In this document: one piece after another, positions 61,215-64,000 of the stretch
Layout: every line of letters starts with the position of its first letter
How positions within the stretch are numbered: position 1 is the stretch's first letter
Origin: Herpetosiphon giganteus
Lineage (GTDB): Bacteria > Chloroflexota > Chloroflexia > Chloroflexales > Herpetosiphonaceae
NCBI RefSeq assembly: GCF_016907925.1
Contig: NZ_JAFBCZ010000030.1
Span: 1-64,000 of the forward strand
Direction: 5' to 3'
Length of the DNA: 64,000 nucleotides
Notes under the pieces: generated by a model
The model's input: only the letters and a program-made list of their open reading frames with translations
What the model was told of the DNA's origin: nothing
The model's database searches: none
Program-made: the position numbers and the translations under genes

Positions 61215-62585
61215 CTACAACGGCAACATACGTTTGCGCATTGCCCGCCGCCGATCAATATTCCACGCCAAACCCAGCCCCACCAAAATAATCAGCCCAA
61301 TTCCAACAATTTTTAGCCGCAGATTGAGTGATTTGAGCAATTCTGCTGCTTGGTTGCGGCCATTGCTATCGCCAAGTTGGCTAAATAAATTGGCGGCCTG
61401 CTCAATATTTTTGCGCGCTGCAACAATCCGAATGCCGTTCAAATCGCGGCGGGCGGTTTCGAGCAATTGCTGAGCTTTTAAGCCTTGTTCGGCGCGTTGC
61501 AAATAATCGTTGAGCACTTTTTGGCGCTCAATTTGGGCCAAATCGGCAAACAGCGGCAAGGCTTGCTCAATCGAAGTTTTGGCTTCGGCATAGCGGCCTT
61601 CCAACAGCGCTACCCGCGCGGCGGCAGCTGCATCTTCAGCTTGCACACCTTTGCGTGCCTGTTCGCGCAAGGCCGCAATCGCTGGATCATCCTTGATTGT
61701 CAGGGCAGTTTCGGCAGCAGCCAAGGCTTCGCTATATTGGCCAGCGGCGATCGCCGTTTCAATGCTTGCTTGATCAAAAGCCACACTCGGAGCCTGTTTC
61801 CAGCCACCATCGATCCAGGTTGGCAGCTGAGCGAGCCATTCGCTTTCGAGGCTTTCGGCACTGAGGCTATAGGCTTGGCTAAGCGCTGAACGATAGCCGC
61901 TGGCGGTGCGCAAGGCCTCTAAAAAAGCCAAAAAGCGCGCCATGCCATAGCGCTGAATCAAAAACGAAACCATCGACCAACTTTGGGGATAGCCCAAGGC
62001 CGGATTATCGTAGACCGCACCAGCACTATCTAAAGTTCGCCATGGCGCTAGTTGGTTATTTTCGAGTGCTTGTTTGAGCAAAGCAATTTTGTAGCCACTT
62101 TGGCTGGTCGGCACTTCCACATATTGAGCAATGCCTTCTTGCCACATCGTGCTTAAACGGCCATCGGAAAGCTCAGCAGCAATAATATGCATCAATTCAT
62201 GGCGCACATTGTTGCGCAATTCCTCGTCGCTCATGCCAATGGTTTGTTGCACTGCAATGCTAATTTCGCGCCGCCCAGTGTGGGCGTGAGCCACAATGCC
62301 TTCGAGGTAGCGCGCCGCCGGATTGACCTGTTGATATAGTTCTTTAGTGGGGTAGATTCGCAGGGTCAGTGGTGGCGCAGGCCGATAGCCAATGATCGCC
62401 GTCACTTCCTCGTAAATTGGGTCGCTATAGCCAGCGTAGCGCTCGGCCTCGGCTTCGCTACCTTGAGGATACAAAATTGAAATATAGGTAGTTTTGCGTT
62501 CAAGCCATTGGGGAAGTTCGGCTTGGGCAAGCGCAGGCCGCGGCCAAACCAGCAGGATTAAGAGTAAACACAACAATCGGCGCAT
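61215..62585 (-). CDS. MA-family gluzincin-type peptidase with C-terminal helical repeats
   Basis: A 456-residue exported peptidase. After a signal peptide (1-20), the zinc motif is HELMH (His129, Glu130, His133) and a third ligand is likely Glu150 in WQEGIAQY. A helical, Ala/Glu-rich segment (about 265-425) with repeats like AALLEGRYAEA follows, then a C-terminal membrane helix (about 428-447) and a basic tail. It should sit on the membrane facing outside. No substrate is known. Confidence 0.87.
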   Translation of the reverse strand: MRRLLCLLLILLVWPRPALAQAELPQWLERKTTYISILYPQGSEAEAERYAGYSDPIYEEVTAIIGYRPAPPLTLRIYPTKELYQQVNPAARYLEGIVAHAHTGRREISIAVQQTIGMSDEELRNNVRHELMHIIAAELSDGRLSTMWQEGIAQYVEVPTSQSGYKIALLKQALENNQLAPWRTLDSAGAVYDNPALGYPQSWSMVSFLIQRYGMARFLAFLEALRTASGYRSALSQAYSLSAESLESEWLAQLPTWIDGGWKQAPSVAFDQASIETAIAAGQYSEALAAAETALTIKDDPAIAALREQARKGVQAEDAAAAARVALLEGRYAEAKTSIEQALPLFADLAQIERQKVLNDYLQRAEQGLKAQQLLETARRDLNGIRIVAARKNIEQAANLFSQLGDSNGRNQAAELLKSLNLRLKIVGIGLIILVGLGLAWNIDRRRAMRKRMLPL

Positions 62586-62634: not shown

Positions 62635-63042
62635 TTACCACGAACCGATTGAATCGCCGCTCTTGCTTGCCCACGAACCGCCTGAATCAGCACCACTTGA
62701 AGTCAATGACTCAAGCTCAAAAAAATCTGGATCAATCGGAGTGTGCAAGACGTTTGGCAAATGAACAGCTGGATCTTGATAGGTGTTGTAGCGCCAACGC
62801 GGCTTTTTGCGCGCAATTGTTGGGTCGTGCGCGCGCCGCGGCTCTAAGCGCGCTTGTAACGAGCGCGGGCGAAAAAAGATGATCCAGAGCGCATAACTCG
62901 ACAAGAGCAACGTTGGAACCGTCACAATTGCCAAAAGCAGATTCAGCAAGCTCCAAGGCAACAGCAATTGCACAATGATCAAGCTTAACGAGCCAAGCCA
63001 TACGATCACGGTTGGTTTATGCGGAGCAAGTTTTTGCACCAT
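62635..63042 (-). CDS. Membrane protein with G-S-W tail (135 aa)
   Basis: Two hydrophobic helices (about 11-55) are followed by a basic region with RKKPRWRYNTYQDPA and a short Gly/Ser tail that ends GGSWASKSGDSIGSW. The start ATG at 63042 has AAAGGA nine bases upstream, which overlaps the stop codon of the next gene upstream, so translation is coupled. It is the last of three neighbouring genes with a C-terminal G-S-W. No known family. Confidence 0.75.
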   Translation of the reverse strand: MVQKLAPHKPTVIVWLGSLSLIIVQLLLPWSLLNLLLAIVTVPTLLLSSYALWIIFFRPRSLQARLEPRRAHDPTIARKKPRWRYNTYQDPAVHLPNVLHTPIDPDFFELESLTSSGADSGGSWASKSGDSIGSW

Positions 63043-63056
63043 CACAATCATTCCTT

Positions 63057-63524
63057 TTACCACGAGCCGCTTGAATCGCCGCTGCTGCTATCGGATGAAC
63101 TGCTGCTCGAATCGCTCGACCACGAGCCACCAGAATCGCCACTTGACCACGAGCCACCAGAATCACCGCTCGACCATGAACCGCTATCAAAGCTCGATGA
63201 ACTGCCCGAATCGTTATTCGACCACGAACCACTATCAAAGCTTGAGCTACTATCGTTCGACCAACCAGAATTCTGGTTGGAATCCATCGACTGGCCGATA
63301 TACATCCCTGTTGCTATATCAGCGCCTGTATGCGAATGATGATCAGAATGATGGTGATTGTGATGAAACGTTGGATTATTGTGATGCTGATGGCGGCGTT
63401 GCCCATTTGAGCGATAGTGTGAAGTATCGCCTTTTACGATCTTGATAATGGTCGATAGAAGAGCCAAAATCGCAAATCCAATGATGAATATGGGGATAAA
63501 CGCGCCGATAGCTGAAAGCTCCAT
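63057..63524 (-). CDS. Membrane protein with His-rich part and G-S-W repeat tail (155 aa)
   Basis: One membrane helix (about 6-28) is followed by a His-rich part (about 37-67, with HHNHHHSDHHSH) and a long tail of Ser/Asp/Gly/Trp units such as SSGDSGGSW and FDSGSW ending GDSSGSW. The tail coding DNA is nearly the same as in the next gene upstream. A GGAG site precedes the ATG. The His-rich part may bind metal (inference). Family unknown. Confidence 0.8.
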   Translation of the reverse strand: MELSAIGAFIPIFIIGFAILALLSTIIKIVKGDTSHYRSNGQRRHQHHNNPTFHHNHHHSDHHSHTGADIATGMYIGQSMDSNQNSGWSNDSSSSFDSGSWSNNDSGSSSSFDSGSWSSGDSGGSWSSGDSGGSWSSDSSSSSSDSSSGDSSGSW

Positions 63525-63549
63525 AACTTCTCCCTTGCTAACCTAATTG

Positions 63550-63999
63550 TTACCACGAGCCGCTTGAATCGCCGCTACTGCTATCGGATGAACTGCTGCT
63601 CGAATCGCTCGACCACGAGCCGCCCGAATCGCCACTTGACCACGAACTGCCCGAATCGCCACTTGACCACGAGCCGCCCGAATCGCCACTTGACCACGAA
63701 CTGCCCGAATCGTTATGCGACCATGAACCGCTATCAAAGCTTGAGCTACTATCGTTCGACCAGTTCGAATCCCACGATTGGGCGGCATGCATGCCAGCGG
63801 CAAAGCCCATGCTTGCAGCGCGATCATCAGTAGCAAAGTGATTGTGCCCAGACTGCTGCATCGTTGGATGTTGATGCAACGATGGGTGTATATGTTGCTG
63901 ATGAAACGAAGAATTATATCGACGGCCACGATACTGATTCGGATTGATATTCGATTGATAGTAATTAGGATTTTTGGCAGCTCGAATAATATGTCGCAC
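63550..63999 (-). CDS. Paralogue with G-S-W repeat tail, cut by the window edge
   Basis: The readable part (149 codons from 63999) has a basic Asn/Gln/Tyr-rich opening, a His-containing stretch (HIHPSLHQHP), and the same FDSGSW and SSGDSGGSW units ending GDSSGSW as the gene at 63057. The N-terminal membrane helix expected by comparison is missing because the frame probably continues beyond 64000. The tail nucleotide sequence is almost identical to its neighbour's, which suggests recent duplication or gene conversion. Confidence 0.7.
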   Translation of the reverse strand: MRHIIRAAKNPNYYQSNINPNQYRGRRYNSSFHQQHIHPSLHQHPTMQQSGHNHFATDDRAASMGFAAGMHAAQSWDSNWSNDSSSSFDSGSWSHNDSGSSWSSGDSGGSWSSGDSGSSWSSGDSGGSWSSDSSSSSSDSSSGDSSGSW

Positions 64000-64000
64000 C

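Follow-up and report, generated by a model that had tools for sequence, protein, structure and literature searches.

Why should a row of neighbouring genes for small membrane proteins end in the same three residues, Gly-Ser-Trp (GSW)? This question is raised by the first 64 kb of contig C30 (hereafter the window) of the 6.16-Mb genome of Herpetosiphon giganteus, where an earlier note had recognised three neighbouring open reading frames with this ending. All three were found again on the minus strand, namely gene A (62635–63063, 142 aa, C-terminus GDSIGSW), gene B (63057–63524, 155 aa, C-terminus SGDSSGSW) and gene C (63550–64092, C-terminus SGDSSGSW), the last of which crosses the window edge at position 64000. 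Reading the sequence past this edge, as the note had proposed, completed C at 180 aa and added two further minus-strand genes: D (64120–64443, 107 aa), whose GSW end makes it the fourth of the row, and E (64487–64774, 95 aa), which ends in the acidic sequence DDDYDDDDDD.

Together, the five small genes are arranged in the order E, D, C, B, A between a gene that we take to be argS from reading its sequence (64929–66671) and a minus-strand Peptidase_MA_2 gene (61215–62585; PF13485, E = 2.9e-18). The spacing within this row is tight, with gaps of 43 nt (E/D), 27 nt (D/C) and 25 nt (C/B), an overlap of 7 nt between the start of A and the stop of B, and 49 nt from A to the peptidase gene. Due to this spacing, it is likely that the genes from E to the peptidase gene form a single transcript, of which the peptidase gene would probably be the last. 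The earlier description of the cluster as following the peptidase gene has to be reversed, since this gene lies downstream and not upstream in the direction of transcription. The sole minus-strand promoter-like site of the region is located in the gap between argS and E, but such sites are equally common in shuffled sequences, and sigma-70-like sites within the cluster were likewise not above the shuffled frequency. The peptidase is gluzincin-like with an HELMH motif, and hydrophobic segments at both its N- and C-terminus predict a secreted, membrane-anchored protein.

According to a hydropathy scan, B, C, D and E each have a single N-terminal hydrophobic helix, with three to four Lys/Arg residues after it and none or one before. 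A further gene type of related species, F (described below), likewise carries its Lys/Arg residues after the helix. This charge distribution predicts, by the positive-inside rule, an N-out/C-in topology with cytoplasmic tails. For A, the scan showed one hydrophobic segment, and this long hydrophobic stretch may form a hairpin of two helices; A also has a conserved basic segment predicted to be cytoplasmic. While the note had described the proteins as otherwise different in sequence, this holds for their bodies but not entirely for B and C, which also share a related His-rich linker (ATGMYIGQSMDSN in B and AAGMHAAQSWDSN in C). An AlphaFold model of B, built with six related sequences, contains one helix (residues 5–31); the remainder has low confidence, which fits a disordered tail. 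The product of E, the first gene of the operon, is a small membrane protein in which a Lys/Tyr/His-rich segment is combined with the abovementioned acidic end, and relatives keep both; taken with the His-rich linkers in B and C, these features suggest metal binding.

Searches for known families returned no match above the cut-off for A to E in Pfam and for A to C in NCBIfam. A role as anti-phage defence genes was rejected, with no PADLOC model matching at E ≤ 1. C-terminal sorting signals (LPXTG, PEP-CTERM and similar), in which a motif is followed by a transmembrane helix and a basic C-terminal end, were also rejected, since the present proteins carry their helix at the N-terminus and close with a hydrophilic tail.

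To judge how unusual the shared ends are, we considered the C-termini of 344 predicted genes from the window and 17 sampled stretches of 20 kb each (340 kb), approximately 400 kb in all. An aromatic last residue was present in 23/344 genes (6.7%) and a Trp in 6/344, and none of the Trp-ending genes outside the cluster in this sample carried a Ser/Gly/Asp-rich tail. Consequently, four adjacent genes ending in GSW are not due to chance. The search for other such proteins suggested by the note was carried out as a genome-wide scan for SGSW followed by a stop codon, and among the true sites checked it gave no further gene of at least 40 aa. The near identity of the tails of B and C, also part of the earlier observation, is borne out at the DNA level: their tail-coding parts (63060–63287 in B and 63553–63777 in C, minus strand) are 91% identical over the last 128 nt. 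This stretch contains a 27-nt tandem unit, which in C encodes nine residues with one Trp each, and a Trp recurs about every nine residues in both proteins. Over the last 18 codons, B, C and D of this genome are 98–100% identical to each other, and B shares 65–72% identity with its own orthologues. Such codon-level identity of three tails within one genome points to gene conversion, and gene conversion or tail exchange would be the simplest account of it.

Next, we turned to the distribution of the cluster. Each of the six genus genomes, this one and five syntenic others, contains it, and 76 other genomes of the order have no counterpart; neither B (searched against 31 genomes) nor A (82 genomes of the order) matched anything outside the genus. 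A profile of the tail, compared with the 82 genomes of the order, matched four genus genomes only and missed the window's own tails; low-complexity profile searches are therefore uninformative here. The peptidase gene adjoins A in 5/6 genomes, and the gene content of the cluster varies, with some species having the additional gene type F at the position beside A. In one genome (G002; L022 1518–3573), A is shortened to approximately 44 residues and the peptidase gene does not adjoin the cluster, which may represent a local rearrangement or deletion. Two others (G001, L021 8348–10000; G004, L024 7955–8989) have a second, diverged argS-like ORF close upstream of the cluster-side argS.

The ends of the proteins differ in how strictly they are kept. 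In B, C and F, GDSSGSW is invariant wherever these genes occur in the genus, and a Ser/Gly-rich tail with an aromatic last residue, always found in these three, is present in D and A in some species. D ends in GDSSD and not in GSW in four other species, and A has the GSW end in this genome only, with GAW in two species and the end lost in two; in G004, one of the latter, DSSGSW is readable downstream of A in another frame. The GSW end is thus not indispensable in every gene. Tail length also differs among species and genes. At the protein level, the tails are conserved: in pairs of B and C genes, the tails showed pN values of 0.01–0.17 against pS values of 0.39–0.85 (values for the last 20 codons against B of this genome are inflated by an alignment gap). 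In the most informative pair, the membrane halves of B from G003 and C from G001 have diverged to a pN of 0.39, while their tails have a pN of 0.014 and a pS of 0.56. These comparisons show that the tail is constrained at the protein level between species. According to the earlier note, unstable low-complexity DNA without conservation in relatives would speak against a functional tail; the tail proved to be conserved, so that the claim stands and a simple unstable repeat is rejected on the ratio of pN to pS.

Outside the cluster, the best match of B was the tail of a 629-aa protein with the C-terminus SSSGDSGGSW, which is encoded directly behind, and overlapping with, the only TPM-domain gene (PF04536) of this genome. 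This TPM gene on contig C11 (L008 7418–10401) consists of two overlapping ORFs, a 366-aa part with the TPM domain and transmembrane region and the 629-aa part, for which neither a Pfam match nor a predicted transmembrane helix was found. Three relatives from the genus and two further genera of the family show the same two-ORF arrangement. Across the order, TPM proteins, or those encoded directly behind them, often end in Trp, and the interiors of their tails are very different. We went on to read the ends of TPM proteins in two independent samples, one Chloroflexota-wide and one myxobacterial. All TPM tails rich in Ser/Gly/Asp/Asn (51/51, from two phyla) end in an aromatic residue (34 W, 16 F and 1 Y), compared with 6.7% of the genes sampled in this genome; this is a strong regularity, which does not amount to 51 independent events because the sequences are related. 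The 22 ORFs of these samples without a Ser/Gly-rich tail, some of which may be wrong frames, follow no such rule. Further afield, YgcG of Escherichia coli ends in GGGGASGRW, and the primers published in PMC8581546 translate to the ends SRGSF for YdjH and MGGGF for YdjG of Bacillus subtilis. When approximately 85,000 genomes, possibly excluding near relatives of the window, were scanned for DNA encoding GDSGGSWSSGDS, a single record was obtained, a myxobacterial TPM protein beside LemA.

Judged by these sequence features, the cluster tail is of the same class as the tails of TPM (YgcG/YdjH-like) membrane proteins. Both are Ser/Gly-rich, of low complexity, predicted to be cytoplasmic, placed after a membrane segment and closed by an aromatic residue, and the same GDSGGSW units recur in the TPM-linked protein of this genome and in a myxobacterial TPM protein. 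The cluster proteins differ in that they are tiny, carry more Asp and Trp in the tail, are encoded in tandem and are confined to one genus. They also have no TPM domain (Pfam search of A to F), and the likeness could therefore have arisen by convergence. The note had not recognised the family. This remains so for the N-terminal halves, but a link to TPM proteins can be drawn for the tail. The proposal in the note that the tails share a C-terminal signal or serve in binding finds good support in the conservation of the tail between species and in the TPM tail class with its terminal aromatic residue.

Further known proteins resemble the cluster in part. YdjG, encoded in the pspA-ydjGHI operon of B. 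subtilis and a membrane partner of YdjH, also has a Gly-rich C-terminus with an aromatic end, but contains a zinc-ribbon and other domains (PMC11237479) and is likened here by its C-terminal end alone. DUF2207 proteins (PF09972) share a Gly/Ser-rich C-terminal tail with a conserved aromatic residue in the end region. However, they are large, and their own domain is absent from A to F (Pfam search). Among the DUF2207 membrane proteins of the class, Phe is penultimate in 14/17 and none (0/17) ends in Trp, a rule separate from the terminal aromatic residue of TPM proteins. Low-complexity segments of TPM-domain proteins have been noted before (PMC11237479), with no rule for them stated in the papers searched, and the part of the literature that we searched contains no GSW or terminal-Trp rule for TPM or DUF2207 proteins. 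A mechanistic analogy is offered by the carboxysome adaptor McdB, in which an invariant Trp of the C-terminal region mediates partner binding and affects condensates (PMC11321042). McdB acts in carboxysome positioning and is not a small membrane-anchored protein of the type described here, but sets a precedent for a C-terminal Trp as a partner-binding end.

The explanation that we favour, although we consider it evenly balanced between right and wrong, is that the small membrane proteins of the genus-specific operon reach into the cytoplasm with a disordered, multivalent tail and dock a shared partner through its terminal aromatic residue. Each protein consists of an N-terminal membrane helix (possibly two in A), a basic or His-rich juxtamembrane linker and, in most copies, an acidic Ser/Gly/Asp/Trp tail with a terminal Trp, predicted to be disordered and to lie on the cytoplasmic side. 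The Ser/Gly/Asp stretch would serve as a flexible arm, the terminal aromatic residue with its free carboxylate would dock to a cytosolic partner, and the internal Trp units might add avidity or self-association. In this way, different membrane helices would be wired to one common partner.

The most plausible class of partner would be the membrane-stress machinery recruited by TPM proteins. In B. subtilis, PspA and the SPFH protein YdjI depend on both YdjH and YdjG for their localization at the membrane, and two-hybrid tests showed an interaction of YdjH with PspA as well as with YdjI (PMC8581546). Perhaps PspA or an SPFH protein is the docking partner here as well, which is the weakest step of the model. 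Counting against it, both PspA genes of the genome lie away from the cluster and from the TPM gene. At L231 (4966–5628 and 6433–8174), one of the two is close to a pair of genes encoding related proteins that are zinc-ribbon-like and contain repeats; no Ser/Gly tail closed by an aromatic residue was seen in the vicinity.

As an alternative to a docking end, the tails might act as stickers and spacers, with Trp and Ser/Gly/Asp in the respective roles, and self-associate into submembrane patches; the last Trp would then be a mere sticker without a receptor. The regular Trp spacing in B and C, the variable tail length and the predicted disorder agree with this, and phase separation through the tail is possible. 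However, inner TPM tails often lack Trp although the last residue is W or F, and the GDSSGSW end is retained exactly in D and F, where inner Trp are few, a pattern that singles out the end itself and leaves the self-association account rather unlikely. We regard it as distinctly improbable that the end is a degron, through which a membrane or cytosolic protease would set the protein level. Hydrophobic C-termini are common protease signals and A tolerates the loss of its end, but a strictly aromatic end across phyla and on long-tailed TPM proteins is narrower than a degron requires, and no protease was found to account for it. Even more doubtful are extracellular tails, serving as surface or adhesion arms processed by the neighbouring secreted peptidase. 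The peptidase gene is indeed co-directional, and Ser-rich segments are often surface-exposed; nevertheless, the Lys/Arg residues that follow the helix in B to F predict a cytoplasmic location, and no transmembrane helix is predicted for the 629-aa protein linked to TPM, which has the same end. Least likely, and largely refuted, is neutral unstable repeat DNA copied among neighbouring genes, for which the 27-nt tandem units and the near-identical codons of B, C and D would speak, but the tail protein is kept despite many synonymous changes and its GDSSGSW end is invariant in B, C and F.

A more far-reaching version of the docking model is correspondingly more tentative, and we would sooner doubt than accept it. 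Here, the aromatic last residue of Ser/Gly-rich tails in the cytoplasm would be an undescribed, widespread short linear motif of TPM proteins, YdjG and this operon, docking a common cytosolic partner in membrane stress or membrane remodelling; within the genus it would have become a plug-in module on several helices, kept alike by gene conversion.

Altogether, the cluster is a real, conserved and genus-limited new carrier of the TPM-type tail class, and its tail is probably no junk repeat but a docking end common to these proteins. The operon represents a natural swap experiment, in which the same tail is placed on different membrane helices, and this argues for the tail, and against the body, as the carrier of the shared function. 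The more general result is the regular occurrence of an aromatic last residue in the TPM tail class: TPM-domain proteins are widespread in bacteria, and an invariably aromatic end makes their tails testable by single-residue changes.
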